Origin: Halococcus saccharolyticus DSM 5350
Lineage (GTDB): Archaea; Halobacteriota; Halobacteria; Halobacteriales; Halococcaceae
Assembly (NCBI RefSeq): GCF_000336915.1
Contig: NZ_AOMD01000030.1
Location: 124,509 to 188,508, forward strand
Direction: 5' to 3'
Length of the DNA stretch: 64,000 nt
Both the position numbers and the translations under genes were made by a program. The notes under the pieces were generated by a model. The model had not been told where the DNA came from and ran no database searches. It was given only the letters and a program-made list of their open reading frames with translations. Below, in pieces: positions 9,419-29,667 of this stretch (the stretch's first letter is position 1; each line of letters begins with the position of its first letter).

Positions 9419-9508
9419 CCTTCGGGAACGACCACACCCATAGTTATTTGTATCCGTATTGCATTGCGTCACCTACGTGTGTGCCCATAGCACACCGGAG
9501 TGATTACC

Positions 9509-10054
9509 GTGGAAATCGAGTTCACACTCAACGACGAACGGACGACCTTCGACGCCGGCGCGGACGAGCTGCTCGTGACGGCGCTTCGGCGTGAGGGATA
9601 TACGGGCGTACAGTGTGGCTGTGACGGGGGCGTCTGCGGCGCGTCGAAGGTCCTCGTCGACGGCGAGGCACGGATGGCTTGTGGGATGGACGCCGCCGAC
9701 GCTGGCGGCACCGAGATCGAGACCATCGAGGCACTCGGCAGCCAGGACGATCTCCATCCGATCCAGCAGGCGTTCGTCGACCACTTCGCAGTCCAGTGTG
9801 GGTTCTGCATCCCGGGGATGATCATGCAGGCGAAGGAGCTGCTCGCGGCGAACCCCGATCCCTCCGAACGGGAGGTCCGCGAAGCCATCGACGACAACGT
9901 CTGTCGATGTACCGGCTACCAGAAACCCGTCGAGGCGATCCTCGACGCCGCAGAGCGGATGGACGGCGACGACGGCGCGAGTGGTCAGCGATCCGTCGCG
10001 ACGGATGGAGGGAACCCCACTGACGGCCACGAACGAGGTGATTTCGATGAGTGA
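9509..10054 (+). CDS. [2Fe-2S] small subunit of molybdenum hydroxylase, set 1
   Basis: A 181-aa xanthine-dehydrogenase/CoxS-type iron-sulfur subunit that would pass electrons from the molybdenum centre. The C-terminal cluster motif is normal (CGFC, then CRC). The N-terminal plant-ferredoxin-type motif is altered: the expected C-x4-C-x2-C reads C38, C43, S46, with C58 downstream and an extra Cys at 36; the paralogue at 12713 has the normal C38/C43/C46. The GTG at 9509 is favoured over 9500 because GGAGTGA precedes it at Shine-Dalgarno distance. Its stop overlaps the start of the large subunit. No FAD-binding subunit gene is present. Confidence 0.9.
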   Translation: MEIEFTLNDERTTFDAGADELLVTALRREGYTGVQCGCDGGVCGASKVLVDGEARMACGMDAADAGGTEIETIEALGSQDDLHPIQQAFVDHFAVQCGFCIPGMIMQAKELLAANPDPSEREVREAIDDNVCRCTGYQKPVEAILDAAERMDGDDGASGQRSVATDGGNPTDGHERGDFDE

Positions 10055-12485
10055 GAACGATCCGAAACCCGACGGTGGAACCGCATCGCAATCGTCGTCG
10101 GTCGAGCGCGAGGCGCTCGACGATCATCCTCTCGAATGGGACGAGCCGGAGAACAACCGGAAGGCCGACGACGAGCGCCAAAGCGTCTCCCGACCCGCCG
10201 AGAAGGACGACGACCGCAAGCTCGTCACCGGCGAGGCGAAGTACACCGCCGACTACGAGGAACAGTTCCCGGATCTCGCCCACGCCGCGGTCGTTCGCAG
10301 CGAGATCCCCCACGGCCGCGTGACGGCGATCGATACGGACGCCGCAGAGTCGATGGACGGTGTTCACGCCGTCCTCACGCCGTGGTCCGATGGCTGTCCC
10401 GACGCGAAGTACACCAGCGCCGGCCAGTCCTATCCCGAGCCCAGCCCGTGGGACATGAACGTCCTCAACGAGCACGTCCGGTACGTCGGCGATCCGATCG
10501 CTGCCGTGGCCGCCGAGGACGACGAAACCGCCACGGCGGCGGTCGAGACCATCGGGGTCGAGTACGAGGAGTACGAGTACGTGCTCGATCCCGAGGAAGC
10601 GTTCAGCGAGGACGCGCCACAGCTGTTCGCGGACGAGGACGTCGAGAACGAGATCGTCGGCCACGACTACGACCGCAACCGGATGTCGAACATCGAGGGC
10701 GAGCTCGGTGACGTCGCGGCCGCCTACGACCGTGAGGACACCCACGTCCACGAAACCGAGTGGTCGACCATTCGTCAGTCACACGCCCAGGTCGAGAAAC
10801 ACACCTCCCTCGCGTACACCGACGAGGACGATCGCCATGTCCTCATCACGAGCACCCAGGTGCCGAACCACACTCGTCGCCAGCTCGCGCACCTGTTCGA
10901 CGTCCCGGTTCGGGACGTCCGGGTGACGAAACCCCGCGTCGGCGGCGGGTTCGGCGGCAAACAGGCGATGGTGGTCGAGCCGATCGCGCTCGCACTCTCG
11001 CTCGCGGCCGACAGACCGGTGATCTACGAAGCCAGCCGCGCCGAAGAGTTCCAGGCGATGCGCTCGCGCCATCCCATGCGGGTACGCGCCCGTTCGGCGG
11101 TCACCGACGACGGCGATATCGAAGCACTCGAACTGTACGCCCTCTCGAACACGGGCGCGTACGGCAGCCACGGCATGACCGTCGCGGGCAACGTCGGCAG
11201 CAAGCCGATGCCGCTGTACTCGAAGGTTCCCAACGTCCGGTTCGAGGCCGACATCGTCCACACCAACACCCCCCAGACCGGCGCGATGCGTGGCTACGGC
11301 GCGCCGCAGGGCACCATCGCGCTGGAGGGCCATCTCGACGAGGTCGCGCGGGACCTCGATCTCGATCCGATCGAATTCCGCCGGGATCACTACATGGAGG
11401 TCGGCGATCTCGACGAGATCGCGGGCATGATGGGCGGTGAGGGGGCCGAACGCCGCATTCGATCCTGTGGACTCGACGACTGCATCGAGCGTGGGAAAGA
11501 GGCCATCGGCTACGACGAGATCGAACAGCCCGAGGCGGAGCATCGACACCGCGGGATCGGAATGGCGCTCTCCGCGCAGGGCACCGGCGTCGCGGGCGAC
11601 GAACTCGGTGGGGCGCAGATCATGATGAACGAGGACGGCTCGTTCCACCTCCAGGTGGGCGGGGTGGACATCGGCACCGGGGCCGACACCGCGTTCATCC
11701 AGATCGCGGCCGAGGTGCTCGGGTGTGACGAGCGTGACATCGTCATCAAGACCTCCGACACCGACAACACCCCGTTCGACTACGGGGCGTACGCCTCCTC
11801 GACCACCTATATCTCCGGGATGGCGGTCAAGAAAGCGGCCGAAGATGCCAAAGAGCGGATTCTCGACTGGGGCTCCCGGCTGCTCGACGAGCCCGTCGAA
11901 GACCTCGACACCGCCGACGGCGAGGTGTACAGCGAGGCGACCGGCGAATCGGTCTCGCTCGAAGACGTCGGCTACGAGTCGGTCTACGGTGACGAGGACC
12001 GCGAGCACATCCTCGGCAAGGGCAGCCACTCGACCGACGAGAGCCCGCCGCCCTTTGCGGCCCAGTTCGCCGACGTGACGGTGGACGCAGAGACCGGCGA
12101 GTTCGAGGTGAACAAGCTCGTCGTGGCGGTCGACTGCGGCGTCGCGATCAATCCCGGCATGGCCGAAGGGCAGGTGGAGGGCGCGAACCACATGAGCTAC
12201 GAGCTCGCAGTCAACGAGGGGATCACCTTCGACGACGAGGGCCGCGCCGAGGTGGCCGACTTCGACGAGTACGACTTCCCGACTGCCGCCGAGTCGCCGC
12301 CCATCGAGTCGATCCTCGTCGAAACTCACGAGCCGACGGGCCCCTTCGGCGCGAAGTCCGTCGCCGAGGTGCCGACCAACACCGTTCCGCCCGCGCTGAG
12401 CAACGCGGTCCGCGAGGCGGTTGGTGTCCGGATCGACGAGATGCCGATCACGGCAGCGAAGATCAGATCGCGACTCGACGAGTAG
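10047..12485 (+). CDS. Molybdopterin-binding large subunit of molybdenum hydroxylase, set 1
   Basis: An 812-aa xanthine-dehydrogenase-family catalytic subunit. Seen in order: acidic N-terminal extension (~55 aa), KLVTGEAKYTADY entry to domain 1, the cofactor loop GGGFGGKQ (~299-306), GAMRGYGAPQG, and the C-terminal GAKSVAEVPTN carrying the catalytic Glu. The residue after GGFGGK is Gln306 where xanthine oxidase has Glu802. It lacks the CoxL AYxCSFR loop, so it is not CO dehydrogenase. The ATG at 10047 follows GAGGTGAT and overlaps the small-subunit stop. Together with maturation genes nearby it is a candidate selenium-dependent purine hydroxylase; substrate unknown. Confidence 0.9.
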   Translation: MSENDPKPDGGTASQSSSVEREALDDHPLEWDEPENNRKADDERQSVSRPAEKDDDRKLVTGEAKYTADYEEQFPDLAHAAVVRSEIPHGRVTAIDTDAAESMDGVHAVLTPWSDGCPDAKYTSAGQSYPEPSPWDMNVLNEHVRYVGDPIAAVAAEDDETATAAVETIGVEYEEYEYVLDPEEAFSEDAPQLFADEDVENEIVGHDYDRNRMSNIEGELGDVAAAYDREDTHVHETEWSTIRQSHAQVEKHTSLAYTDEDDRHVLITSTQVPNHTRRQLAHLFDVPVRDVRVTKPRVGGGFGGKQAMVVEPIALALSLAADRPVIYEASRAEEFQAMRSRHPMRVRARSAVTDDGDIEALELYALSNTGAYGSHGMTVAGNVGSKPMPLYSKVPNVRFEADIVHTNTPQTGAMRGYGAPQGTIALEGHLDEVARDLDLDPIEFRRDHYMEVGDLDEIAGMMGGEGAERRIRSCGLDDCIERGKEAIGYDEIEQPEAEHRHRGIGMALSAQGTGVAGDELGGAQIMMNEDGSFHLQVGGVDIGTGADTAFIQIAAEVLGCDERDIVIKTSDTDNTPFDYGAYASSTTYISGMAVKKAAEDAKERILDWGSRLLDEPVEDLDTADGEVYSEATGESVSLEDVGYESVYGDEDREHILGKGSHSTDESPPPFAAQFADVTVDAETGEFEVNKLVVAVDCGVAINPGMAEGQVEGANHMSYELAVNEGITFDDEGRAEVADFDEYDFPTAAESPPIESILVETHEPTGPFGAKSVAEVPTNTVPPALSNAVREAVGVRIDEMPITAAKIRSRLDE

Positions 12486-12712: not shown

Positions 12713-13276
12713 ATGCAAGTGAATATCAAGCTCAACGGGAACGCGAAACAGTTCGATGTATCGAAGACCGACAGCCTCCTCGACGCACTCAGAAAGAACG
12801 GGTACACAGGTGCCAAACGCGGGTGTGACACCGGTGCGTGCGGATTCTGCACGGTCGTGGTCGATGGCGAACCGGTCAACTCCTGTGTCACGCCGGTCGC
12901 GAAAGCCGACGGCGCGACGGTCGAGACGATCGAGGGGCTCGGCAGTCAGTCGAACCTCCACCCCGTCCAGCAGGCGTTCGTCGATCACTCCGCGCTCCAG
13001 TGTGGGTTCTGTATCCCGGGGATGATCATGCGCTCGAAGGCGCTGCTCGAGGAAAACCCCGATCCCACGGAGGCGGAGGTCCGGGAGGGGCTCTCGGACA
13101 ACCTCTGTCGGTGCACCGGGTACAAGAAGATCGTTGAGGCGGTGCTCGACGCCGCCGAACGGATGGGGGATGACGGCACGGGCGGCCAGCAATCCGTTGC
13201 GACGGATGGCGGGAAGGCAGACGGATTCGTCGCCAAGAACGGCGAGTGCTGCGGCGAGGGGGGTGAGTGCCGATGA
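12713..13276 (+). CDS. [2Fe-2S] small subunit of molybdenum hydroxylase, set 2
   Basis: A 187-aa paralogue of the set-1 iron-sulfur subunit, with all expected ligands: C38, C43, C46 and the downstream SC for the first cluster, CGFC and CRC for the second. The C-terminus carries an extra Cys-rich tail (GECCGEGGEC) not found in set 1; whether it binds metal is unknown. Its stop overlaps the large-subunit start (ATGA). The two sets are a tandem duplication separated by ~230 bp containing a separate promoter, so they may be expressed under different conditions. Confidence 0.92.
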   Translation: MQVNIKLNGNAKQFDVSKTDSLLDALRKNGYTGAKRGCDTGACGFCTVVVDGEPVNSCVTPVAKADGATVETIEGLGSQSNLHPVQQAFVDHSALQCGFCIPGMIMRSKALLEENPDPTEAEVREGLSDNLCRCTGYKKIVEAVLDAAERMGDDGTGGQQSVATDGGKADGFVAKNGECCGEGGECR

Positions 13277-15717
13277 GCAAACCCGACCAGCCACCCGAGG
13301 TCGACGATGACGACGGTGTCGTCGATCTCGAAAGGGAGGACCACCCGATCGAGGGAGACGAAGCAGCAGACAACCGGACGGCGGCCGACGAGCACGAGAC
13401 CATCACCACTGAGACCGAGAAGTACGACGCCCGGAAGATCGTGACCGGTGAGGCGCGCTACACCGCCGACTACCGGAATCGGTTCCCGGACCTCGCCGCG
13501 GGAAAGGTCGTCCGAAGCGACATCGCCCACGGCTACGTCACTGACATCGACACGAGCGACGCCGAGGCGATGGACGGCGTTCTCGCCGTCATCACGCCGT
13601 GGGACGACGTGGTGCCCGACACGCTCTACTCTCCGTCGGGACAGTCCTATCCCGAGCCGAGCCCGTGGGACACGACAGTGCTCCGCGAGCACGTGCGGTA
13701 CGTCGGCGACCCGATCGCGGCCGTCGCTGCGACCGACACCGACACCGCCGATCGTGCAGCCCGAAAGATCACCGTCGAGTACGACGAGCGCGAGGCGGTT
13801 CTCGATCCGGCCGACGCGACCGATCCCGACGCACCGCGGCTGTTCGAGGAGGACGAAGTCGAGAACGAACAGGCCGGTGCGGACTACGAGCGCAACCTCG
13901 AATCGCACTTCGAGGGCGAGATCGGCGATCCCGAGCGCGTGTTCGAGACGGCCGACGCGGACCGAGTTCTCGAAACCGAGTGGGAGACACCCTACCAGTC
14001 CCACTGCGTGCCAGAGCCCCACACCACCATCGCCTACACCGACGAGGACGACCGGTACACCTTCATTACGGCCACGCAGGTGCCGTTCCACACTCGTCGG
14101 CAGCTCGCACACCTCTTCGACGTGCCGATCCGCGACATCCGGGTGACGAAACCCCGTGTCGGCGCGGGCTTCGGCGCGAAGCAGGAGATGGCGATCGAGC
14201 CGATCGCGTTCGCGCTCCACCGGAAGGCGGGGGTGCCGGTAAAGCTTGAGATGACCCGTCAAGAGGAGTTCACCGCGCTCCGATTCAGGCATCCGACCGA
14301 ACTCAAGTTCAGAACCGCCGTCGACGACGACGGCGACCTCGCGGCGATGGACCTCGACGCCCGCGAGAACTCCGGAGCCTACGGCACCCACGGGATGACG
14401 GTCGCGGGCAACATTGGTACGAAGGCGCTGCCGCTGTACCCGCGCGTGCAGGACGTCCGGTTCGCGGCCGACATCGTCCACACCAACCTCCCGATGGGGG
14501 CGGCGATGCGTGGCTACGGTGCGCCACAGGGGATGTTCGTCGTCGAGGGCCACATGGACGAGCTCGCGCGGCGACTCGGCGAGGACCCCATCGCGTTCCG
14601 GAAGCGACACGCCGTCCGGGAGGGTGACCTCGATCGGACCGCGGCGATCATCAAGGAGGGCGAGCGTTTCAACCGCCGGATCAGATCGTGTGGAATCCGC
14701 GAGTGTATCGAGCGCGGGAAGGAGGCCATCGGCTACGACGACCTCGAACAGCCCGAGGAGGACCATCTCCATCGGGGGATCGGGATGGCGCTGTGTGCCC
14801 AGGCCAGCGGGGTTGCGGGCAAGGAACTTGGGGCCGCTCAGCTCAAGATGAACGAAGACGGTTCGTTCCACCTCCAGGTGGGTGGGGTCGACGTCGGCAG
14901 CGGCAACGACACGATGTTCACCCAGATCATCGCCGAGGTGCTGGGCTGTGTCCCCGAAGACGTCATCGTCAGGTCCTCGGACACCGATCTCACGCCTCAC
15001 GACTACGGCGCGTACGCCTCCTCAACCACCTACATCAGCGGCCGCGCGGTCAAGAAGGCGGCCGAGGACGCCAAAGAGCGCCTCCTGTACTGGGGCGCGA
15101 AGATGCTGGACGAACCCGTAGAGAACCTCGAAACGGGCGGCGGCGAGGTGGTGAGCGAGGCGACCGGCGAATCGGTCACCCTCGAAGAGATCGGCTACGA
15201 GTCGACGTACGGCGACGACGAGCGCGAGCAGATCATGGGCGGCGGCCATCACTCGACCGACGAGAGCCCGCCGCCGTTCGGCGCGCAGTTCGTCGACGTC
15301 ACCGTGAACGAGGAAACCGGCGAGTTCGATCTCAACGAGCTGGTGTTCGCGGCGGACTGTGGCGTCGCGCTCAACCCGCCGCTGGTCGAGGGGCAGATCG
15401 AGGGTGCCCAGCACATGAGCCTCGAACTCGCCACCAGCGGCACGCTCGAGTTCGACGAGGACGGTCAGCCCGAGACGCTCGGCTTCCGGCAGTACGGGAT
15501 GCCCCGGACGACCGACCACCCGCCGATGGAGACCATTCTCGTCGAGACCCACGAGCCGACGGGCCCCTTCGGCGCGAAGTCGATCGGCGAACTCCCGACC
15601 AACGGTGTGCCGCCCGCACTGAGCAACGCGGTCCGTGACGCTGTCGGTGTCCGGATCACCACACTCCCCATCACCACGGAGAAGGTGAAGCGAGCGCTCG
15701 ACGCGAGCGACGACTGA
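13273..15717 (+). CDS. Molybdopterin-binding large subunit of molybdenum hydroxylase, set 2
   Basis: An 814-aa xanthine-dehydrogenase-family catalytic subunit, paralogous to set 1 over its full length. The cofactor loop reads GAGFGAKQ (Gln304), which departs from GGGFGGKE in two glycines and in the Glu that orients xanthine in the bovine enzyme. AAMRGYGAPQG and the terminal GAKSIGELPTN with the catalytic Glu are intact. The ATG at 13273 overlaps the small-subunit stop; two more codons upstream (13267) are possible. Together with set 1 it may provide two successive hydroxylations (for example hypoxanthine and xanthine) or act on different heterocycles. Confidence 0.9.
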   Translation: MSKPDQPPEVDDDDGVVDLEREDHPIEGDEAADNRTAADEHETITTETEKYDARKIVTGEARYTADYRNRFPDLAAGKVVRSDIAHGYVTDIDTSDAEAMDGVLAVITPWDDVVPDTLYSPSGQSYPEPSPWDTTVLREHVRYVGDPIAAVAATDTDTADRAARKITVEYDEREAVLDPADATDPDAPRLFEEDEVENEQAGADYERNLESHFEGEIGDPERVFETADADRVLETEWETPYQSHCVPEPHTTIAYTDEDDRYTFITATQVPFHTRRQLAHLFDVPIRDIRVTKPRVGAGFGAKQEMAIEPIAFALHRKAGVPVKLEMTRQEEFTALRFRHPTELKFRTAVDDDGDLAAMDLDARENSGAYGTHGMTVAGNIGTKALPLYPRVQDVRFAADIVHTNLPMGAAMRGYGAPQGMFVVEGHMDELARRLGEDPIAFRKRHAVREGDLDRTAAIIKEGERFNRRIRSCGIRECIERGKEAIGYDDLEQPEEDHLHRGIGMALCAQASGVAGKELGAAQLKMNEDGSFHLQVGGVDVGSGNDTMFTQIIAEVLGCVPEDVIVRSSDTDLTPHDYGAYASSTTYISGRAVKKAAEDAKERLLYWGAKMLDEPVENLETGGGEVVSEATGESVTLEEIGYESTYGDDEREQIMGGGHHSTDESPPPFGAQFVDVTVNEETGEFDLNELVFAADCGVALNPPLVEGQIEGAQHMSLELATSGTLEFDEDGQPETLGFRQYGMPRTTDHPPMETILVETHEPTGPFGAKSIGELPTNGVPPALSNAVRDAVGVRITTLPITTEKVKRALDASDD

Positions 15718-15805
15718 CGATCCCGCTGGGGACCGTCGTTCTTGGAAGAACCGTTTTGCGACGAAGCTGACGAAGCAACTCCTTCCAGTCGAACCTCGAT
15801 ACGCT

Positions 15806-16033: not shown

Positions 16034-16267
16034 GATTCTAGCACCCATGGTGCGGTCTCACACTCGCGTTTTCCGTCGAGGCTCTTGAAGATGTCGTTCC
16101 GCCGACCGGCCACGAGCCGCCAGTCGATGCGCCGACAGCGACGCAACGGTGGGGAGGGAAGGAGGTAGGGGGGAAGAGGGACAGTGAGGCAGCCGAACGC
16201 GTGGTGTCGCCGCATCGCCGGCCAGCACAGGGACAACGGTTTAGTGGCTGCTCCCGGGAGTAGGGAT

Positions 16268-16603
16268 ATGAGCCGGTCAGCCCTCACGACGTACCTCGTC
16301 CTTCGCGAGCTCGACGAACCGATCGACCGAGCGGCAGTCGACTCGGTTCGCGATCGGATCGAGGACGGCGTGCGCGAGGTTCTCAGGAGTGGCGTCGAGC
16401 TAGAGTGGGACCGGACTGACGTATTGGCGAACCACGACGGCGAGATCGTCGCTCTCCTCGACGAGTTCCGTCTCGACGGGGCCGACGCCGAGCGGGTCTT
16501 CGACGACCACGCCGACGCCGCCGAAGTGCCGATGACGTCGGTCTGGGCGCTCGACGACCGCATCGACGGCGAACACGTCGAGCGACGCAAATCGCGGCGG
16601 TAG
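16268..16603 (+). CDS. Small haloarchaeal protein, possibly ferredoxin-like fold
   Basis: A 111-aa acidic protein. Alternating strands and helices (TTYLVLRELDEP, LEWDRTDVL, EIVALLDEF, TSVWALDDR) suggest a duplicated beta-alpha-beta, ferredoxin-like arrangement, but no family can be named. The frame is open to 16184; the ATG at 16268 gives a protein without the Arg-rich, non-haloarchaeal leader. Convergent with the acetolactate-synthase-like gene. Confidence 0.55.
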   Translation: MSRSALTTYLVLRELDEPIDRAAVDSVRDRIEDGVREVLRSGVELEWDRTDVLANHDGEIVALLDEFRLDGADAERVFDDHADAAEVPMTSVWALDDRIDGEHVERRKSRR

Positions 16604-16663
16604 AACGAGCCCGATCGGCAGTGACAGTGCGGTTCGGTTCCTGATTCGTTCGTCGATGGACCG

Positions 16664-18259: not shown

Positions 18260-18356
18260 GTGCCGCGCTACACCCAGCAGGTACATTAGTTCGTCGCTGG
18301 CATGCGAAGCCACATCACTTCCACCTTTCTCGGTCCCTGTTGTCTCATCACAACTG

Positions 18357-18362
18357 TTAAAT
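18357..18362 (+). promoter_or_regulatory. TATA-like box of first AzgA permease
   Basis: TTAAAT about 29 nt upstream of the ATG at 18389. It is followed by TGGTGTGGTGTGTC (18367-18380), an element repeated at the second permease. Confidence 0.5.
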
Positions 18363-18388
18363 CGGATGGTGTGGTGTGTCATAACGGC

Positions 18389-19834: not shown

Positions 19835-19894
19835 CGCCTGGTTCGCGTGCTCTCGGGGATCGTCGGGTTGAATGGCGACGAACCATCCAAAGAA

Positions 19895-19900
19895 TTAAAA
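19895..19900 (+). promoter_or_regulatory. TATA-like box of second AzgA permease
   Basis: TTAAAA 28 nt upstream of the ATG at 19927. The downstream element TGGTGTAATGTGTC (19905-19918) matches the first permease promoter at all but two positions. Confidence 0.5.
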
Positions 19901-19926
19901 GGACTGGTGTAATGTGTCTCGGTATC

Positions 19927-21390: not shown

Positions 21391-21487
21391 ATTTCCGGCC
21401 ATTCTCCCGTCACTCGGGACTATCGTCTCCGTTTCGAACCCTGCTCGGCGAGCGAACGGTTTTAGGGGCGGGTTCCGTAGGGCGGGT

Positions 21488-21859
21488 ATGACGAGGCTCG
21501 GAATCCTGCTTACCGGTGGGCCATTCGACAGCGAGCGCTGGCGGACGGCCTACGAACTGGGCCGTGCAGCGCTCGCCGCCGGTCACGAGGTGACGTACTT
21601 TCACTACCTCGACGGGGCGCTCGTGCCGGTCGCCGATCAGACCTTCCCCGACTGCGCCGACGGCGGCCTGTTCGACGAGATGCCCTCCGAGAAGTTTCAA
21701 GAACTCGTCGATCGTGGGGCCGAGGTGATCTGCTGTGGGCTCTGTGTCGACGCGCGCGGGATCGACGCCGCAACCGACTACCCCGACGGCGTCGAGGTCG
21801 GACTCCTCCCGGATCTCGCCGACCTCCTCGGCGAGGCCGACAGGGTGGTGTCGCTGTGA
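21488..21859 (+). CDS. DsrE/TusD-like sulfur-relay subunit
   Basis: A 123-aa DsrE-fold protein. The CCGLCVDARGI segment (C82, C83, C86) corresponds to the TusD/DsrE active-site Cys region that carries a persulfide. First gene of a tightly overlapping run dsrE-dsrF-dsrH-yqeB: its stop overlaps the GTG of the next gene. TusBCD/DsrEFH complexes accept sulfur from TusA and hand it to a downstream acceptor. Here the coupling to an XdhC/YqeB protein suggests delivery of sulfur or selenium to the molybdenum cofactor instead of tRNA. Confidence 0.82.
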   Translation: MTRLGILLTGGPFDSERWRTAYELGRAALAAGHEVTYFHYLDGALVPVADQTFPDCADGGLFDEMPSEKFQELVDRGAEVICCGLCVDARGIDAATDYPDGVEVGLLPDLADLLGEADRVVSL

Positions 21860-22209
21860 AGCGCGACGTCGCCGTCCTCCTCACGCGCGCGCCCTACGGC
21901 CGGGTCCACGTCCCCGAGGGACTGCGTGCGGCCCGCGGGGTCGCCGCCGGGTTCGATCGCCACGATGTCACCGTGGTCTTCACCGAGGATGCGGTGTACG
22001 CCGCCCGTGAAGCGGTCGATCGTGCGGCGCTCAACATGCCAGGCCACATCGAGGACCTCCTCGCCGAGAACGGTCGGATGGTCGCCGATCGCGAGGCACT
22101 CGCGGTCCGTGAGGTCGACGAACGTGAACTCGCCGACGACGTCGAAGCGGTGTCGGGCGATGCGGTCGCACAGATCATCCAGGATGCGGATCACACGATG
22201 GATTTCTAA
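21856..22209 (+). CDS. DsrF/TusC-like sulfur-relay subunit
   Basis: A 117-aa DsrE-fold protein with the TusC/DsrF landmark TRAPYGRVHVPEGLRAA. It contains no cysteine, as expected for the structural subunit of a hexameric DsrEFH/TusBCD complex. Starts with GTG inside the preceding stop (GTGA), so translation is coupled. Confidence 0.82.
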   Translation: MKRDVAVLLTRAPYGRVHVPEGLRAARGVAAGFDRHDVTVVFTEDAVYAAREAVDRAALNMPGHIEDLLAENGRMVADREALAVREVDERELADDVEAVSGDAVAQIIQDADHTMDF

Positions 22210-22210
22210 C

Positions 22211-22456
22211 ATGCTATATCTCATCGACAAACCGCTCGCTGACCTCGGCCTCCGGACCGCAGCGCGCGACGACAACGCACGGATCGTCCTGATCCAGGAC
22301 GGCGTGTTGCTCGACCCCAATCTCGACGTCCCGATCTACGCGGTCGAACGCGATGTCGACGTTCGCGGCGTGGACCTCCCGGACGGCATCGAACCGATCA
22401 CCTACGAGGACCTGATCGAGCGCCTCTTCGCCAACGAGGTGAAGACGTTCGCATGA
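22211..22456 (+). CDS. DsrH/TusB-like sulfur-relay subunit
   Basis: An 81-aa protein with the LIQDGV strand typical of TusB/DsrH. It lacks the cysteine found in DsrH of sulfur oxidisers and so resembles TusB, the relay-type version. It starts one base after the dsrF stop, and its own stop overlaps the yqeB start (ATGA). It completes a three-subunit relay complex. Confidence 0.8.
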   Translation: MLYLIDKPLADLGLRTAARDDNARIVLIQDGVLLDPNLDVPIYAVERDVDVRGVDLPDGIEPITYEDLIERLFANEVKTFA

Positions 22457-24033
22457 GCGTCTTCGAGCGTGCGCACACGCTGGCCGAGCGCGGCGAGTCG
22501 GTCGCGCTGCTCACGGTCGTCGGCAAGGACGGCAGCGCGCCGCGGGAAGTGGGCGCGCGCATGCTGGTGACTGACGACGACGAGTACGGCACCATCGGCG
22601 GCGGCAGCGTCGAGGGGCTCGCGATCGACGCCGGCCGAGCAGTGCTCGACGGCGACGAGAAGCCGGGCGTGCGGACCTACGAACTCCATCCCGACGGAAA
22701 CACCGGGATGGTCTGCGGGGGATCGATGGACGTGTTCGTCGATCGGCTCCGTGGACGAAAACGCCTCGCGATCGCCGGTGGCGGCCACATCGCGACCGAA
22801 CTCGCTCCGCTCGCCGAGCGGCTGGGCTACGACGTGACCGTGATCGACGACCGCGAGGAGTACGCTGACGGGGAGCGCTTCCCCGACGCCACCGAGGCGA
22901 TCCACGGCGACTACGGCGCGGCGCTCGCCGACCTCGCGCTCACCGACGAGAGTGCGGTCGCGGTGGCGACCCGGAGCGGGACCTTCGACGCACGCGCGGT
23001 CGGCGCGGCGCTCGACGCCGGCGCGGGCTACGTCGGCCTCGTGGCTTCCGCAACGAAGGCGGACCACGTCCTCGACTCGCTCGCCGACGACGGCTACGCG
23101 TGGTCCGATCTCGCGCGCGTCCGCGCGCCGATCGGCCTCGATCTCGGCGGCGGTAACCCTGCTGACGTCGCGCTCTCGGTCCTCGCGGAGATGAGTCGGG
23201 ATCGCCACGGCGCGTCGGGCGACCGGATGGCGACGCTCGCCCTCGACGACTGTGTCGTGGTCCGCGGCGGCGGCGACCTCGGCAGCGGCGTGGCCTACCG
23301 CCTCCACCGCGCGGGCTACCCCGTGGTCGTGACCGACGTCGAGCAGCCCACCGTGGTCCGCCGGGCGGTCGCGTTCGGGACGGCGATCTACGAGGGCGAG
23401 GTGAGCGTCGAGAGCGTCGTCGGCCGACATGTAGGGGGCATCGACGACGCGATCGGCGTGCTTCGTGATGGCGACGTGCCGGTGCTCGCGGACCCTGAAG
23501 GGGCTGTCATCGACGAACTCGATCCTGAAGGGGTGGTCGATGCGATCATGGCGAAGGGCAAGTACGACACGGGCACCCGACGGGCGGACGCGGACGTCGT
23601 GATCGGCCTGGGGCCGGGGTTCGAGGCTGGCACGGACGTCGATGCGGTGGTCGAGACCGATCGCGGCCACGAGCTCGGTCGGGTGTTCTACGAGGGCACC
23701 GCGAGCGCGTACGACGGCGAGCCGGGAACCCGCGAGGGGTACACCCACGAACGGGTGTTCTACGCGCCGACCGCGGGCGTGTGGGAGCCGACGGTCGAGA
23801 TCGGGGAGTGCGTCGTGGCGGGCGATCGGCTCGGAACGGTCGCGGACGACTCGGTCGAGGCCGAGATCGATGGCCTGGTTCGGGGATTGGTCCACTCGGG
23901 CGTCGCGGTCGAGGAGGGGACCAAGCTCGGCGACGTCGATCCCCGTGGCGAGGCGGTCGACTACCGGAAGATTTCGGACAAGGCGCTGTGTCTCGGCGGC
24001 GGGGTGCTCGAAGCACTACTTCAGTTGGAGTGA
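22453..24033 (+). CDS. yqeB: XdhC-YqeB molybdenum hydroxylase maturation protein
   Basis: A 526-aa two-part protein. Residues 1-~255 are XdhC/CoxI-like (SAPREVGARMLV, GTIGGGSVEG, MVCGGSMDVF and a GGGHIATE Rossmann motif), the family that binds Moco and handles its sulfuration. Residues ~259-526 are the YqeB/EF2563-type domain (VVRGGGDLGSGVA, GLGPGF, then a C-terminal biotinyl-like hairpin region). E. coli YqeB has a similar length and the same composition, so the fusion is not new. YqeB is a marker of selenium-dependent molybdenum hydroxylases. Coupled by ATGA to dsrH. Confidence 0.88.
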   Translation: MSVFERAHTLAERGESVALLTVVGKDGSAPREVGARMLVTDDDEYGTIGGGSVEGLAIDAGRAVLDGDEKPGVRTYELHPDGNTGMVCGGSMDVFVDRLRGRKRLAIAGGGHIATELAPLAERLGYDVTVIDDREEYADGERFPDATEAIHGDYGAALADLALTDESAVAVATRSGTFDARAVGAALDAGAGYVGLVASATKADHVLDSLADDGYAWSDLARVRAPIGLDLGGGNPADVALSVLAEMSRDRHGASGDRMATLALDDCVVVRGGGDLGSGVAYRLHRAGYPVVVTDVEQPTVVRRAVAFGTAIYEGEVSVESVVGRHVGGIDDAIGVLRDGDVPVLADPEGAVIDELDPEGVVDAIMAKGKYDTGTRRADADVVIGLGPGFEAGTDVDAVVETDRGHELGRVFYEGTASAYDGEPGTREGYTHERVFYAPTAGVWEPTVEIGECVVAGDRLGTVADDSVEAEIDGLVRGLVHSGVAVEEGTKLGDVDPRGEAVDYRKISDKALCLGGGVLEALLQLE

Positions 24034-24100: not shown

Positions 24101-24769
24101 ATGCGAGTCGCACTACTCGGCGGTACCGGCGACATCGGTGAAGGCATGGCGCTTCGATGGGCACGCGACACCGACCACGAGATCGTGATCGGGTCCCGGA
24201 ACGCCGAGAAAGGCGAGTCTCGCGCGGCCGACTACCGGGATCGCCTTAGCGAGCGCGGCGTCGACACCGACGTTTCGGGAACCGACAACGCCAATGCCGC
24301 GGCGGGGAGTCGGATCGTCGTGGCGAGCGTTCCACCGGCGTACGCCGCCGACACGATCGAGGCGGTGCGCGACGACCTCGCCGAGGAGGCGATCGTCGTC
24401 AGCCCCGCGGTGGCGATGGCGCGCGACGAAACCGGCTTTCACTACGACACGCCGGAAGCGGGCAGCGTCGCGGAGACGGTCGCGGCCGTCACGCCCGACG
24501 AGGTGCCGGTCGTCAGCGCGTTCCAAAACCTCGCGGCGGGCGCGCTCACCGATCTCGACCGCGAACTCGATCTCGATGTCGTGGTCTCGGGCGACGACGC
24601 CGACGCGAAGGGCGTCCTCATGGAGCTCGCCGAGGAGATCGAGGGACTGCGCGCGCTCGACGCCGGCGCGCTCGCGAACAGCGCCGAGATCGAGAGCATC
24701 ACGCCGCTGCTCATCAACCTCGCAATGAACAACGACGGGATGCACGACCTCGGCGTCCGGTTCCAGTAG
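24101..24769 (+). CDS. npdG: F420H2:NADP oxidoreductase
   Basis: A 222-aa protein with the N-terminal LLGGTGDIGEGMALRWA motif typical of archaeal F420-dependent NADP reductase (NpdG/Fno), followed by an IGSRNAEKG NADP-phosphate-binding segment. It exchanges hydride between NADPH and coenzyme F420. It lies 67 nt after yqeB, with a T-rich box ~28 nt upstream of its own ATG, and is convergent with selD. Together with an LLM flavoprotein and cofC in the same island it may supply reduced F420 to a reductive step. Confidence 0.88.
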   Translation: MRVALLGGTGDIGEGMALRWARDTDHEIVIGSRNAEKGESRAADYRDRLSERGVDTDVSGTDNANAAAGSRIVVASVPPAYAADTIEAVRDDLAEEAIVVSPAVAMARDETGFHYDTPEAGSVAETVAAVTPDEVPVVSAFQNLAAGALTDLDRELDLDVVVSGDDADAKGVLMELAEEIEGLRALDAGALANSAEIESITPLLINLAMNNDGMHDLGVRFQ

Positions 24770-24824: not shown

Positions 24825-25838
24825 CTACCGCTGCACCGGTTCGATCGTCGCACCGTCGAGCGAGACGCCGCTTCCCTCGCGAACGGTGCCAACGTGATGG
24901 AAGAAGACATCGCGGTCGGCGAACGCGTGTTCGAGGTCGCCTGCGCGGTCGTCGGGCACCGCCACGAGCAGCCCGCCGCTGGTTTCGGCGCTCTCGCCGT
25001 CCTCTAGTCCGTAGCCGAACAGCGCCGAGAGCTCGGGCGTACCGTCGATGACCGGCAGCGTTTCGATCTCGATCCCGACGCCAGCGCGCTCGGCCATCAC
25101 GGCCGCCTGGCCGGCGAGGCCGAACCCGGTCACGTCGGTCGCCGCGGACACCTCGACCTCCCGTATTGCGCGTGCCGCCGCACGATTCGGCGTCGTCATC
25201 CAGGACAGCGCCTCCGTGCCGACCGTCTCGACCTCGCGGGTCGCAGTCTCGCGCACGAGGTCGGCGAACTCGCCGTCGCGCACGCGGAGCGCGCCCATCG
25301 CAGGCTGGGTCCCGAGCGGTTTGGTGAGGTAGAGCCGATCGCCTGGCTGTGCACCGTCGGCGGTGAGCAACGCGTCGGGCGGCGCGACGGCGTCGACGGC
25401 AGCCCCGGCCAACGGCCACGGATTCAGTACCGTGTGGCCGCCGGCGACGACACCGTCCATCCCCTCGATCGCGTCGGTGATCCCTGTGAGGATTTCGGCG
25501 GCGACGTCGGTGAGGTCACGCGGGAGGCCGAGGACACAGAGCGCCGAGAGCCCGTCGACCGCGCCGGTCGCGAACGCGTCGCTCGCGGCGTTGCACGCCG
25601 CGACCCGGCCGAAGTCGTAGGGATCGTCGATCACGGGCGTGAAGAAATCGATCGTCGAGACCAGCGCGAGGTCGTCGGTGAGCCGTCGGGCGGCGGCGTC
25701 CTCGCCGACGCCGAACAGCAGGCCGTCTTGATCGGCGTCGAGCCCCGTCTCGGCGAGCAGCGATTCGAGGTCGGCGCGGCCGACCTTGCACGAACAGCCG
25801 TGGAGTTCGGCGTGGTCGGTGAGTTGAGGCGATCCCAT
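24825..25838 (-). CDS. selD: Selenophosphate synthetase (selenide, water dikinase)
   Basis: A 337-aa SelD that makes selenophosphate from selenide and ATP. The active-site region reads HGCSCK: C15 and K18 correspond to E. coli Cys17 and Lys20, so this is a cysteine version with no in-frame UGA. Downstream it has the glycine-rich, Asp-containing nucleotide/metal segments DGLLFGVGEDAA and STIDFFTPVIDDPYDFGR, and GGHT. It is one base from the tusA stop. In haloarchaea SelD without selenocysteine or selenouridine genes has been taken as a marker for selenium-dependent molybdenum hydroxylases; that fits the surrounding yqeB, yqeC and xdh genes. Absence of selA/selB/ybbB elsewhere in the genome cannot be judged from here. 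Confidence 0.93.
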   Translation of the reverse strand: MGSPQLTDHAELHGCSCKVGRADLESLLAETGLDADQDGLLFGVGEDAAARRLTDDLALVSTIDFFTPVIDDPYDFGRVAACNAASDAFATGAVDGLSALCVLGLPRDLTDVAAEILTGITDAIEGMDGVVAGGHTVLNPWPLAGAAVDAVAPPDALLTADGAQPGDRLYLTKPLGTQPAMGALRVRDGEFADLVRETATREVETVGTEALSWMTTPNRAAARAIREVEVSAATDVTGFGLAGQAAVMAERAGVGIEIETLPVIDGTPELSALFGYGLEDGESAETSGGLLVAVPDDRAGDLEHAFADRDVFFHHVGTVREGSGVSLDGATIEPVQR

Positions 25839-25839
25839 C

Positions 25840-26100
25840 TCAGGCGCGACTCCGGCGCTCGTCGAGCGCGGATTCCTCCGTCACGCCGATGCGTAGCTGG
25901 AAGGTGTCGTCCGGAGTGTCGTCGGGGCCGTCGGTCACGGCGAAGCCGTGTTTGTGACACGTTCGCCGGAGGTTGCGCTCGGCGGGCGGGTAGTCGCCGG
26001 TCACGAGGAGTTCGTCGCCCGCGTCGAGTTCCTGGAGACACCGCCGAACGATCAACGCCGGTTTCGGGCAGACGGCCCCGGTGACGTCGACTTCCTCCAT
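25840..26100 (-). CDS. TusA/SirA-family sulfur carrier
   Basis: An 86-aa protein with the family CPKP motif (C11), the cysteine that carries persulfide (or potentially perselenide). It is immediately upstream of selD (1-nt gap). TusA-like domains fused to DsrE-like domains (YedF) are a known selenium-linked family. Here a TusA-like protein sits with selD and the DsrE-like subunits sit with yqeB, suggesting the same partners as separate genes. GTTATA at 26124-26129, about 26 nt upstream, could be its own promoter. Confidence 0.85.
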   Translation of the reverse strand: MEEVDVTGAVCPKPALIVRRCLQELDAGDELLVTGDYPPAERNLRRTCHKHGFAVTDGPDDTPDDTFQLRIGVTEESALDERRSRA

Positions 26101-26158: not shown

Positions 26159-27040
26159 TCAGGCGAGCCGCGTCCGGAGCCGTGCGGCGAGGTGATCCGC
26201 GACGACCACGAGTACGAACACCGCGAGGACGGCCGTCAGGAGTTGCTGGTACTGGAGTCGGCGTATCGAGATCACGAGGTAGTAGCCGATCCCGCCCGCC
26301 CCCACGAACCCGAGGATCGTCGCGGCGCGGATGGCACACTCCCAGCGATACAGCGTGTACGAGGCCATCGTCGCAGTTACCTGCGGAACCATCCCGTGAC
26401 ACACCGCCTGGATCCGGCTCGCACCGCTCGACGCGACCGCCTCGGTCGTCACCGGATCGACGTCTTCGAGGAAATCGGCGTAGAGCTTGCCGAGCACGCC
26501 GGCGTTGTGGACCCCGAGCGCGAGCACGCCGGCGAAGGGACCGAGACCGACTGCGGTGACGAACAGAAAGCCCCAGACCAGGCCCGGCACCGACCGGAGG
26601 AAACTCAGCACGACTCTTCCAAATCGGTGGATCGTGCGGCCGAGCCCGCGCCGTGCGGGCGACGCGTTCGCGTACAGCGGTCCCCGATACGTCACGGTCG
26701 CCGCGCTCGCGAGTGCCAGGGGAACGGCGAGAACGACCGCGAGCGCGGTCCCGACGACGCTGATGGCGAGCGTCTCCACCACCGCCCAGAGCAGCCCGTC
26801 GCGGAGCGACCGCCCGAGGAGGTAGTCCCGGGTCACGTCCGGCGGGAATCCCTCCGCGACGAACGCCCACATCTGCGACCGCGCGTCGGGCCGGACGAGC
26901 GCGAGCGAGTCGACCTCCGCGATCCACGCCGCAGCCAGCAACACGATCCCCAGCGCGAGCACCCGGCCGAGCGTCCGCTTCGAGAGGGCTCCGCCGCGCT
27001 CGCCTGCGACCGCCGATCGTCGCTCGGTGCGTTCAGACAT
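26159..27040 (-). CDS. phnE: PhnE-type ABC transporter permease
   Basis: A 293-aa membrane protein with an N-terminal anchor and about five further segments. The EAA-like loop [15 protein letters not shown] and the [11 protein letters not shown] segment are typical of phosphonate-type permeases. It overlaps phnC by 8 nt. It is followed after 58 nt by tusA-selD on the same strand. PhnCDE systems carry phosphonates, phosphite or phosphate; in this neighbourhood a selenium oxyanion such as selenite is a plausible alternative (inference). Confidence 0.85.
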
Positions 27041-27881
27041 GCCAGGGTGGTCTCTCTTCGGGGCTGGTTCCATCATCGTCGTTCGTCGTCTGAGCCACCG
27101 CTGAAGGAGTCTCGGCGACTGTCGAGCGCGGGGCGGTAACTGACGGCGATTCGGTCGTTGCCTTCGCAGCGTCCATATCCGGCCCGAACAGCTCGTCGAG
27201 TAGCGCGTCGGTCACCGCTGTGGCGGGACGATCGAAACACACCTGGCCGTCGGCGAGTCCGACGACGCGGTCGTAGCGCTCGCGCGCGAGGCGCACGTCG
27301 TGGAGGACGGTGACGAGCGTGCCGTCACCGACCGACTCCTCGAGCACGTCGAGCACGGTCGCGGTCGTCGAGGGATCGAGGTTGGCGGTGGGTTCGTCGG
27401 CCAACACTATCGGCGCGTCCTGGACGAGCGCGCGAGCGAGGGCGACGCGCTGGCGCTGGCCTGCACTGAGCGAACTCACGCGGGCGTCGGCCTTCTCGGC
27501 GAGGCCGACACGATCGAGCAACGAGAGCGCCGGGTCCGGGTCCACGGGCGCGAGCGGTTCGACGAGACCACGCCACCACGGGAGCGCGCCGAGCCGCCCG
27601 GCGAGCACGTTCGCGAGGGCGGTGCGCCGTCCGACCAGCGTCTCGCCCTGGTAGGCGAGCGCGACCGCGTCGCCTACCACGGGCTCGCCGTCGAGCAGCA
27701 CGCGACCGCTGTCGGGCTGGATCGCACCGCTCACCAGGCGCAACAGCGTGGTCTTGCCCGTGCCCGAAGGGCCGACGACGGCGACGTGCTCGCCGCTGGC
27801 GATTCCGAGGGAGACATCCCTTACTGCCCCGTCGTCGCCGAACGATTTCGTGACGCCGTCGAGCGTCAGCTCAGGACTCAT
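27033..27881 (-). CDS. phnC: PhnC-type ABC transporter ATP-binding protein
   Basis: A 282-aa ABC ATPase: Walker [10 protein letters not shown] (37-45), Q-loop YQGETL, signature [15 protein letters not shown], Walker [13 protein letters not shown] and switch His in LHDVRLA. It has a C-terminal low-complexity tail of ~55 residues. It overlaps phnD by 11 nt and phnE by 8 nt. The frame is open to 28019, but the ATG at 27881 gives the standard N-terminus. Confidence 0.88.
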
Positions 27882-28809
27882 TCGCTGACGTTGCTGCGGC
27901 GTTCTCCGAGTCAAGCAACCCCATCGTCCGAACCGCCGAATCCAGCGTTTCGAACTGCTCGTGGCTCGTCTCGACGTACTCGTCGACGTTCTGCTGGTCG
28001 AGGATCGTCGACTTCCCACTCTCGTCGAGCCCCGTGAACGCCGTGCGGATGGCGTCGCGGGTGTCGGCGTCGAGCGTCTTCGCTGCGGCCCATGGGTAGT
28101 CCGCGAATCCGGGTGTCCGCCAGAGTTCGACGACGCTTTCGCCGATAGAACCCTCCTCGACGAGTGCGTCGTAGATGCGGGCGTTCAGCGCCCCCACGTC
28201 GCCGCTGGCGTTCGCGATAGCTTTCGCCGTGGCATCGTGCGCGCCGACGTGGGTGAGGTTCGCGAAGTCCCGCTTCGGGGCGAGGTCGTACTCGTTCCGG
28301 AGATAGTGCGTCGGCATCACCGTCCCGCTCGTGCTGATCGGATCGCCGAAGACGAGATCCAACTCGTCCGCTGAGGTGGCGACGTCGTTCATCTTCGACA
28401 GACCGGTCGACTCGTGGGTGATGAACGCCGAGTGCCACTTCGTCGAGCCGTTCTTCGAGCCGACGACGACGGCTTCGGCCCCGGCTCGGTGGTGGGCGAG
28501 CACGTACGAGACGCCACCGAAGTACGCGAAATCGACCTGTTCGGCGCTCATCGCCTGAACGAGGCCGGCGTAGTCCGCCGTCGTCCGCAACGTCACCGAC
28601 GCGTCGAGTTCCCCTTCGAGGTAGGACTTGAGTGCCTGGTTCTTCTCGATCGCCGTGTCGGGGTCGACGTCCGGAACGATCCCGACGGTCATCTCCAGTT
28701 GCTCCGAGGAGGCCACGGAGCCGAGACATCCACCCAGTGTTCCTACTCCTGCTGTCGCGATGGTACCCAAAGCTGCACGTCTCGATAGACCGCTGGCTGA
28801 CCGACCCAT
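27871..28809 (-). CDS. phnD: PhnD-type substrate-binding lipoprotein
   Basis: A 312-aa extracytoplasmic binding protein. The N-terminus has a Tat-type SRRAAL motif, a hydrophobic stretch and a lipobox LGGC, consistent with a Tat-exported lipoprotein, usual in haloarchaea. The body carries PhnD-like features: VGIVPDVDP at the start, [26 protein letters not shown] and PWAAAKTL. It starts at the ATG at 28809 (28824 also open) and is divergent from yqeC across 102 bp. The ligand is unknown: phosphonate/phosphite by family, a selenium oxyanion by context. Confidence 0.85.
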
Positions 28810-28911
28810 GTCACGACACGGCATCCGCCGTCACATAATCGTTCCGACTCGACGGACGGCGGTCGGGCTTTTCGGCACAACGCTCATGTCGGACGGCGAG
28901 TACGGCAGGAT

Positions 28912-29667
28912 ATGCGACTCGCCGCCGCCCTCTCGCTCTCGACGCCCGAACTCGTCGCGTTCGTCGGGGCCGGTGGGAAGAAGACTGCAATGGGTCGCCT
29001 AGTGAGCGAGGCGGACGCCCGTGACCTCTGGGCCGGGTACACCACCACGACCCACACCCCGCCGCCGGAGTACCCACTCGTGCTGGCCGAGCCTGAACAC
29101 CTCGGGCAAGAACTCGCTCGAACCGACGACTCGCCGGTCGCGTTCGCACGTGAGGAGGTTCCGAACCCCGATCGCGCCGCCGAGAAAGTCCGGGGGTTCG
29201 CGCCTGGCGTGATCGACGACGCTTTCGAGTCGAGTCGGTTCGACTGGCTCTGCGTGAAGGCCGACGGCGCGCGCCGCCGCGGGTTCAAAGCGCCTGGCTC
29301 GGACGAGCCCGCGATTCCGAGCGCGAGCACCACCGTCGTCCCTGTCGTCTCGGTCGGCGTCGTCGGCGAACCTCTCGACGAAGAACACGTTCACCGGGTC
29401 GAGCGCGTGGCCGCGCTCACGGGGCTCGCGCGCGGCGAGCGTCTCACCGCCGACGCCGTCGGGCGGGTGCTGGCCCATCCCGACGGCGGCCTGAAGGGTG
29501 TGCCCGCGTCGGCGCGGGTCGTCCCGCTCGTAAACCAGGCCGACGCCGCCGATGACCGCCGGACTGCACGGGCAGTGCTCGAAGTCGCGTTCGAGCACAC
29601 CAACCGCTTCGATCGCGGGATCGTCGCCTCGCTCCGAAACGACACGATCGCCGTCGTCGAAGCTTGA
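28912..29667 (+). CDS. yqeC: YqeC-type selenium-dependent hydroxylase accessory protein
   Basis: A 251-aa P-loop protein: Walker A-like VGAGGKKT (18-25) near the N-terminus, a Thr-rich TTTTHTPPPEYP segment, and VKADGARRRGFKAP, which are landmarks of YqeC. The biochemical role is unknown; the gene is a phylogenetic marker of SDMH together with selD and yqeB. Divergent from phnD, convergent with adenine deaminase. The length agrees with bacterial YqeC (~250 aa). Confidence 0.88.
   Translation: MRLAAALSLSTPELVAFVGAGGKKTAMGRLVSEADARDLWAGYTTTTHTPPPEYPLVLAEPEHLGQELARTDDSPVAFAREEVPNPDRAAEKVRGFAPGVIDDAFESSRFDWLCVKADGARRRGFKAPGSDEPAIPSASTTVVPVVSVGVVGEPLDEEHVHRVERVAALTGLARGERLTADAVGRVLAHPDGGLKGVPASARVVPLVNQADAADDRRTARAVLEVAFEHTNRFDRGIVASLRNDTIAVVEA

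Follow-up and report, generated by a model that had tools for sequence, protein, structure and literature searches.

The supply of selenium to the molybdenum cofactor in selenium-dependent hydroxylases has been described as the least understood of the ways in which selenium is used (PMC11448449), and a locus of Halococcus saccharolyticus DSM 5350 raises the question of whether three genes of the DsrE fold take part in it. The window, the whole stretch of 64,000 nucleotides that was analyzed (GCF_000336915.1, NZ_AOMD01000030.1, positions 124,509 to 188,508 of the forward strand) and whose numbering is used here, contains four consecutive genes behind a promoter-like element, as follows:

21453..21464, + strand: putative BRE/TATA promoter element of the dsrE-F-H-xdhC/yqeB unit (upstream alignment)
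21488..21859, + strand: dsrE, DsrE/TusD-like, 123 amino acids (PF02635, 1e-20)
21856..22209, + strand: dsrF, DsrF/TusC-like, 117 amino acids, GTG start (PF02635, 6e-11; TIGR03010, 5e-7)
22211..22456, + strand: dsrH, DsrH/TusB-like, 81 amino acids (TIGR03011, 5e-6; PF04077, 6e-5)
22453..24033, + strand: xdhC/yqeB fusion, 526 amino acids (TIGR03309 YqeB, 1e-104; PF02625/PF13478)

The stop/start junctions proposed for these genes by an earlier sequence-only reading are right to the base: the dsrE stop overlaps the GTG start of dsrF (GTGA), a 1-nt gap separates the dsrF TAA from dsrH, and dsrH overlaps the fusion gene (ATGA). Order and strand are identical in all 29 haloarchaeal loci examined, and among 28 loci the dsrE/dsrF overlap is 4 nt in 27, while the dsrF/dsrH gap of 1 to 3 nt and the ATGA overlap occur in every one. 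The quartet is unbroken in 29/29 loci despite reshuffled neighbors, with the phn, mobA, ade, and permease genes relocated or absent in some. This conservation, together with an exact phylogenetic profile (detailed below), rules out a chance gene order. Alignment of the region upstream of dsrE from the 29 loci revealed a conserved CnAAACTATTAA-like element with an A+T content of 86 to 100% at positions −30 to −27. The window copy (CGAAC...TTTTA) is a weaker match, with a TATA-like core 28 to 24 nt 5′ of the dsrE ATG. The element is predicted to be a leaderless archaeal promoter, and the four genes are best explained as a single promoter-led, translationally coupled unit, which forms part of the overall reading given below. 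In 23 of the 29 loci, a molybdenum hydroxylase large subunit (MHL1-like, a relative of MHL2) ends no more than about 170 bp before dsrE, and no hydroxylase lies directly upstream in the other 6. A single operon always uniting client enzyme and quartet was rejected on account of these six loci and of the conserved promoter-like element that dsrE has of its own.

Matches to Pfam/NCBIfam and PDB profiles, with the fold of DsrH, identify three adjacent DsrE-fold genes in the order E-F-H. The DsrF profile matches DsrF 2hy5_B (3e-6). The PF04077 score of DsrH falls slightly below the curated cutoff, and its identity is confirmed independently by a profile match to TM0979 (1rhx; 3e-7) and by an AlphaFold model (pLDDT of 85) that matches TusB 2d1p_C and DsrH 2hy5_C. 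The AlphaFold model of DsrE, with a mean pLDDT of 47, was set aside. All three proteins score below the cutoffs of the TusBCD equivalogs TIGR03010/03011/03012 (21.1 versus 89.25 bits for DsrE, 29.7 versus 94.15 for DsrF, and 26.7 versus 49.2 for DsrH). The fourth gene had been assigned to XdhC/YqeB; both families are matched, and the assignment is corrected to an XdhC-YqeB fusion, with the XdhC domains at amino acids 11 to 247 and the YqeB domain at 268 to 525. Cys88 of XdhC is invariant. Cys513 of YqeB is present in 27/28 loci; it is found in haloarchaea and three Clostridia, and the position is an alanine in E. coli and two other archaea.

Complexes of the DsrEFH/TusBCD type are α2β2γ2 hexamers with persulfide transfer. 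The only conserved cysteines of the haloarchaeal DsrEFH sit in DsrE, which carries a CGLC motif and in which C56, C83, and C86 are invariant across 28 loci. Counting back from a shared RG motif, C83 occupies the position of TusD Cys78, in a stretch that hhalign aligns poorly. Of the active-site cysteines named in the sequence-only reading, C83 and C86 thus stand, C82 is missing in 1 of the 28 loci, and C56 is as invariant as the former two. DsrF and DsrH had been described as cysteine-free, as in TusBCD. Neither has a conserved cysteine in the 28 loci, but the parallel is inexact: E. coli TusC has cysteines, and some haloarchaeal DsrF proteins have sporadic, nonconserved ones.

The surroundings of the quartet contain further genes of the selenium-cofactor trait, together with possible clients:

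9500..12485, + strand: second molybdenum hydroxylase, small subunit 9500 to 10054 and large subunit 9981 to 12485, starts uncertain (Fer2_2, MoCoBD_1/2)
12713..13276, + strand: molybdenum hydroxylase [2Fe-2S] subunit, likely client (Fer2_2, 4e-35)
13267..15717, + strand: molybdenum hydroxylase Mo-binding large subunit (MHL2), likely client, start uncertain (MoCoBD_1/2; best NCBIfam match XdhA, below cutoff)
24825..25838, − strand: selD, selenophosphate synthetase (NF010705 SelD, 5e-95; TIGR00476, 3e-79; both above cutoff)
25840..26100, − strand: tusA-like carrier gene (PF01206, 9e-14)
26159..28824, − strand: PhnE/PhnC/PhnD-like ABC transporter, candidate selenium-oxyanion importer (TIGR04553)
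28912..29667, + strand: yqeC, selenium-cofactor accessory gene (TIGR03172, 2e-49; PF19842, 2e-29)

SelD, YqeB, and YqeC, the selenium-cofactor trait genes, thus occur together in the window, all above curated cutoffs. As had been noted from the letters, a TusA-like carrier gene sits beside selD near yqeB: it lies 1 nt upstream of selD (1 to 3 nt in most loci), the pair is located 0.8 to 1.8 kb past yqeB, and selD is convergent to xdhC/yqeB. C11 and C48 of the TusA-like protein (window numbering) are conserved in 28/28 loci. The best match of the PhnD-like protein is TIGR04553, “putative selenate ABC transporter substrate-binding protein” (8e-56), at 189 bits against a cutoff of 250.

Among 292 haloarchaeal genomes, the YqeB fusion is present in 22, and the same 22 contain a close SelD and a full-length DsrF; no full-length DsrF was found in any of the 292 outside the genomes with YqeB and SelD. 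The hypergeometric value for this co-occurrence (1.5e-33) takes no account of relatedness and is not read as a probability. No DsrH was matched elsewhere in the class by PF04077, a weak model that recovers only 3 of the 22. In a sister species of the same genus, selD, tusA, yqeC, and both molybdenum hydroxylases are lost, and dsrE, dsrF, and yqeB survive only as fragments. The association of DsrEFH with SelD and YqeB that had been proposed is therefore borne out, as the 29 loci and the 22 of 292 genomes show neither free separation of the four genes nor their presence in relatives lacking selD. Because of the universal linkage, the exclusive co-occurrence, and the joint decay, DsrEFH almost certainly belongs to the selenium-cofactor trait. 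YqeB also occurs without dsrEFH nearby in two nonhaloarchaeal archaea and in E. coli, showing that DsrEFH is not universally required.

The best explanation as a whole, to which we assign a probability of roughly 0.5, is a chalcogen relay from TusA through DsrEFH to XdhC-YqeB. The transcription-translation unit would ensure that a chalcogen-carrier complex and the molybdenum-cofactor acceptor are made together. The carrier would be a divergent DsrEFH/TusBCD-type assembly, with Cys83 of DsrE as the loading site and Cys86 as its partner in the CGxC pair. The TusA-like protein, whose gene is coupled to selD, would be loaded by a cysteine desulfurase or selenocysteine-lyase-type enzyme and pass the atom to DsrE, after which DsrEFH would dock on XdhC-YqeB and hand the atom, most likely selenium, to the XdhC-held molybdenum cofactor. 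The charged cofactor would then go into the neighboring molybdenum hydroxylase. DsrEFH probably acts as a chalcogen carrier; that it delivers to XdhC-YqeB is about an even proposition, and the choice of selenium as the delivered atom is tentative. We infer complex formation, the persulfide/perselenide chemistry, the direction of transfer, and the element. Several published observations bear on these steps. NifS4 sulfurates XdhC-bound molybdenum cofactor (PMC2997495), TusA has an established role in molybdenum-cofactor synthesis in E. coli (PMC5372717), deletion of yqeB in Clostridioides difficile mimics the loss of selD on xanthine and urate (PMC11448449), and TusA/TusD transcripts of M. maripaludis rise by 4.5 log2 under selenium starvation (PMC11097638). 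The presence of YedF, a bacterial TusA-DsrE fusion, in selenium operons of Clostridia adds Rosetta-stone support for DsrEFH in this relay. A more specific version, in which DsrEFH is a dedicated selenium carrier that passes perselenide from TusA and DsrE to XdhC-YqeB and thereby puts selenium on the molybdenum cofactor, with the C-terminal cysteine of YqeB as acceptor and YedF acting likewise in bacteria, is possible and somewhat doubtful.

Gene linkage is a sign of a shared pathway, not of direction, and TusA and DsrEFH may instead act before SelD. A desulfurase or lyase would then provide perselenide, the CGxC motif of DsrE would reduce it, and selenide would go to SelD, with the coupling to yqeB only balancing expression. 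The tight coupling of tusA to selD agrees with this arrangement, as do the Clostridia operon in which YedF is flanked by selD and a lyase-like gene and the finding that bacterial YedF tracks SelD, even where a species has selenium traits of another kind (PMC5322559). C86, absent from TusD, would serve as a resolving cysteine; selenide could be released reductively through it, which would suit either SelD or YqeB as the recipient. In other selenium pathways selenophosphate, the SelD product, is used directly, and it is not obvious why a protein-bound carrier would be required after SelD. However, dsrEFH is tied to xdhC/yqeB in 29/29 loci and not to selD-tusA on the opposite strand, and we consider a role before SelD rather unlikely.

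Less probable still is that DsrEFH delivers sulfur. The molybdenum cofactor would then be sulfurated on XdhC first, and SelD and YqeB would bring in selenium that takes the place of the sulfur or bypasses it. Sulfur is indeed what the characterized DsrEFH/TusBCD complexes carry (PMC3397948, PMC13293266) and what XdhC proteins receive (PMC2997495), but many haloarchaeal genomes with XdhC-type genes and without SelD/YqeB also lack DsrF, which indicates that ordinary haloarchaeal molybdenum-cofactor sulfuration does not need it. Buffering or detoxification of selenium and sulfur against damage by free selenide, by genes merely coinherited with the locus, is improbable: the locus is plasmid-borne in many species and cotransfer alone could hold its genes together, but the quartet stays intact where the phn, mobA, ade, and permease genes do not. 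Finally, family resemblance would suggest that the genes serve tRNA thiolation, as TusBCD does, or sulfur oxidation of the Dsr type. TusE/DsrC, MnmA above cutoff, and SelU are each absent from all 22 genomes, which makes such a role highly improbable, and with it the contrary outcome named in the sequence-only reading, an effect limited to tRNA thiolation. The lack of SelU also excludes selenouridine as the reason for SelD, and SelA/SelB are reported to be absent from Haloarcula marismortui (PMC2432076).

These results make dsrE, dsrF, and dsrH strong candidates to perform the missing step of selenium (or sulfur) delivery. The candidate selenium-cofactor machinery gains three obligately linked genes, and the TusBCD/DsrEFH family is tied to the bacterial YedF fusion and gains a likely role beyond tRNA thiolation and sulfur oxidation. 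Haloarcula hispanica carries the locus and is genetically manipulable, so that the question can be tested by gene deletion.

The organization of DsrEFH resembles that of E. coli TusBCD in its three subunits (order D-C-B, with DsrF corresponding to TusC and DsrH to TusB) and its single key-cysteine subunit. It differs in scores far below the equivalog cutoffs, in the extra C86 of the DsrE active-site motif, and in genomes without TusE and MnmA. The fold, the subunit order, and an equivalent of the active DsrE cysteine are shared with DsrEFH of type I, from Allochromatium, and of type II, from cable bacteria (PMC13293266). In contrast to type I, the haloarchaeal system has no DsrC, its DsrH lacks the essential Cys20, and its proposed partner is XdhC-YqeB. 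The XdhC-NifS4 pair of Rhodobacter capsulatus is a functional likeness, with a chalcogen donor acting on the XdhC-held cofactor. In the haloarchaeal case a DsrEFH carrier would take the place of NifS4, and XdhC, the acceptor, is part of a fusion with YqeB. YedF (TIGR03527), the SelD-linked TusA-DsrE fusion of bacteria, has the same CGxC motif and lies near selD and yqeB in selenium-hydroxylase operons of Clostridia, ordered xdhFSL-mobA/yqeC-selD-yedF(TusA::DsrE, CGTC)-lyase-yqeB-xdhC. A role before SelD is the one most readily guessed for bacterial YedF. In haloarchaea, TusA and DsrE are instead separate genes, and DsrE is joined with DsrF, DsrH, and xdhC/yqeB. Neither TusA (27.9 versus 110 bits in the window) nor DsrE reaches the YedF cutoff (0/3 genomes above), and hhalign of DsrE against three near-identical YedF C-terminal domains aligned the motif region alone (probability of 60%). 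The proposed kinship of DsrE and YedF is thus suggested by motif and gene context, not by a significant profile match.

The closest counterpart is the Haloarcula marismortui pNG700 locus, which shares the two molybdenum hydroxylases, the XdhC-YqeB fusion, selD, the TusA/SirA-like gene, yqeC, and the Phn-like transporter. As in the window, DsrE, DsrF, and DsrH genes directly precede yqeB; in the record, two of them carry the annotation “DsrE family protein” and one is listed as “hypothetical protein.” The orphan SelD, the XdhC-YqeB fusion, YqeC, and the SirA/TusA-like gene of this organism were published in 2008 (PMC2276186, PMC2432076), and the accessible text of the two papers contains no mention of dsrEFH. 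The locus has thus been known since 2008, and DsrEFH is its new part.

The four genes of the quartet lie on the forward strand of the window, as follows:

21488-21859, forward strand, dsrE (PF02635, 1e-20)
21856-22209, forward strand, dsrF (PF02635, 6e-11)
22211-22456, forward strand, dsrH (borderline by Pfam, backed by a profile match and by fold)
22453-24033, forward strand, xdhC/yqeB (TIGR03309 YqeB, 1e-104, with XdhC domains N-terminal to YqeB)

The stop/start coupling proposed in the sequence-only reading was confirmed at all coordinates, with a GTGA overlap between dsrE and dsrF, a 1-nt gap between dsrF and dsrH, and an ATGA overlap between dsrH and yqeB. Because a conserved TATA-like element lies ~27 to 30 nt ahead of dsrE, this gene most likely opens its own transcript, predicted to be leaderless and to span the four genes. 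Current records label the small genes "DsrE family protein," "hypothetical protein," or "DsrH/TusB family," and in a family search of the window proteins the TusD, TusC, and TusB equivalog models scored weakly, far under cutoff. Two further results support the assignment of DsrH: its profile matches TM0979 (3e-7), and its AlphaFold model, of good quality, matches TusB (2d1p_C; TM, 0.78/0.68), DsrH (2hy5_C), and YchN. The DsrF profile matched Allochromatium DsrF.

Its close relatives place the window genome among the haloarchaea. The full XdhC-YqeB fusion, a close SelD, and full-length DsrF occur in the same 22 of 292 haloarchaeal genomes, covering six genera and four families, and beyond them the SelD score falls from 346 to 68 bits. 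The DsrH family (PF04077) had no match elsewhere in the class, with a weak model that recovers only 3 of the 22 carriers. With seven further loci (L032 to L037 and Haladaptatus L133), the quartet is unbroken in 29 of 29 loci, all counts being drawn from related genomes and thus not representing independent events. The E/F overlap measures 4 nt in 27 of 28 loci, and the F/H gap of 1 to 3 nt and the H/YqeB ATGA overlap are present in all 28. The junction is therefore kept, as had been proposed for checking, and free parting of the genes in relatives without selD was not observed. Pairwise protein distances of DsrE, DsrF, and DsrH correlate with those of YqeB (r = 0.91 to 0.94). The surroundings are less stable than the quartet: phn, mobA, ade, and permease genes change place among the 29 loci, and in 23 of them a gene for a Mo-hydroxylase large subunit ends no more than ~170 bp before dsrE. 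The deposited dsrH models in loci L132 and L133 (12749-12970) start late (222 versus 246 nt); read from the conserved start, 2 nt past the dsrF stop, the protein has 81 amino acids.

The expected TusA-like carrier gene indeed sits beside selD, 1 nt away, both on the opposite strand and convergent to yqeB. Beyond them lie PhnEC/PhnD-like transporter genes and then yqeC:

27871-28824, reverse strand, PhnD-like binding protein (best match TIGR04553, "putative selenate" ABC transporter, below cutoff)
26159-28019, reverse strand, PhnC/PhnE genes grouped with the PhnD-like gene inside the selenium locus

This transporter is a candidate selenium-oxyanion importer; the Haloarcula marismortui locus carries the same Phn-like transporter. 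Two molybdenum hydroxylases, each with a [2Fe-2S] and a Mo-binding subunit, lie upstream of the quartet. In this genome, the intervals around the quartet (window 15717-21488 and 24101-24769) carry two NCS2 permeases, an F420 reductase (npdG), and a gene resembling acetolactate synthase, which set the quartet apart from both the Mo hydroxylase and selD but leave it intact. G072, a genome of the same genus, retains the flanking genes but has lost both Mo hydroxylases together with the block selD-tusA-phn-yqeC; what is left is a scar (L124, G072:C10:111000-130999, ~10070-10580) in which pieces of dsrF, yqeB, and the C-terminal part of dsrE are spliced together. The selenium module of this genome has decayed as a whole.

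Of the DsrE cysteines first read as active-site residues, C82 is missing in one of 28 loci, whereas C83 and C86, like C56, are present in all of them. Neither DsrF nor DsrH has a conserved cysteine across the 28 loci. TusA has two cysteines, C11 and C48 (window numbering), in all loci examined. Counted back from a shared RG, C83 occupies the position of TusD Cys78, and C86 completes a CGLC motif that TusD lacks, YedF has as CGTC, and YchN has as CKTC (CxxC). A catalogued selenocysteine form (UxxC) of a DsrE-like protein (PMC9312934) fits a nucleophilic role for the first position. As for the acceptor, Cys88 of XdhC does not vary among the haloarchaeal loci examined, and YqeB Cys513 is found in 27 of 28 haloarchaea and three Clostridia, with Ala in Escherichia coli and two other archaea. 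This C-terminal cysteine (CLGGG) accompanies YedF in the Clostridia (L039 to L041), with Ala in E. coli and in the two archaea (L144 and L145) that have no dsrEFH linked to it; in this small sample, it is a possible acceptor covarying with a CGxC DsrE partner.

By analogy with NifS4, which sulfurates the Mo cofactor on XdhC (PMC2997495), TusA would pass its cargo to DsrE and DsrE to the Mo cofactor on XdhC-YqeB, the cofactor then being inserted into the hydroxylase; we give this relay a probability of about one half. The main alternative, rather less likely, is that TusA and DsrEFH bring SelD its selenium in reduced form, a role that YedF may also have. The extra resolving cysteine, C86, favors delivery to SelD; that the obligate partner is yqeB, not selD, favors the relay to XdhC-YqeB. 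That DsrEFH delivers sulfur only appears more doubtful still. The linkage data do not separate these three readings. Since TusE/DsrC, MnmA above cutoff, and SelU were found in 0 of 22 genomes, Dsr sulfur oxidation, selenouridine formation, and bacterial-type tRNA thiolation are disfavored.

Reports of 2008 (PMC2276186, PMC2432076) describe this locus type, including the H. marismortui fusion gene, and work of 2024 showed that yqeB matters when Clostridioides difficile uses purines in a selenium-dependent manner (PMC11448449). No link of DsrEFH or TusBCD to YqeB was found in the literature covered, mostly outside subscription journals. Selenium starvation of Methanococcus maripaludis raises TusA/TusD transcripts by 4.5 log2, an increase that the authors left unexplained (PMC11097638). 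Outside the haloarchaea, YqeB exceeds the cutoff in two archaea (L144, 9464-10342; L145, 9672-10439) that belong to the same phylum and to family f35. Its gene there is divergently oriented to xdhC, with a Mo hydroxylase nearby, and one of these genomes has SelD over cutoff on another contig, suggesting that the selenium-hydroxylase trait exists in archaea outside Halobacteria. Because neither these two nor E. coli has dsrEFH linked to YqeB, the dsrEFH-yqeB arrangement is a haloarchaeal variant and no universal requirement. Two YqeB-bearing archaea without a DsrF match carry adjacent tusA-dsrE pairs elsewhere (G474 C5, 27626-28200; G466 C204, 6793-7364), which could be a split equivalent of YedF.

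YedF is a TusA domain fused to a DsrE domain; the literature reports its linkage to SelD and its absence from archaea (PMC5322559). A Clostridia locus (L039, 2255-11714) holds nearly the entire selenium-hydroxylase kit in a single run: xdhFSL, a mobA/yqeC fusion, selD, yedF, a lyase-like gene, yqeB, and xdhC. The separate TusA and DsrE genes of haloarchaea therefore match, in the same gene setting, what is one protein in bacteria.
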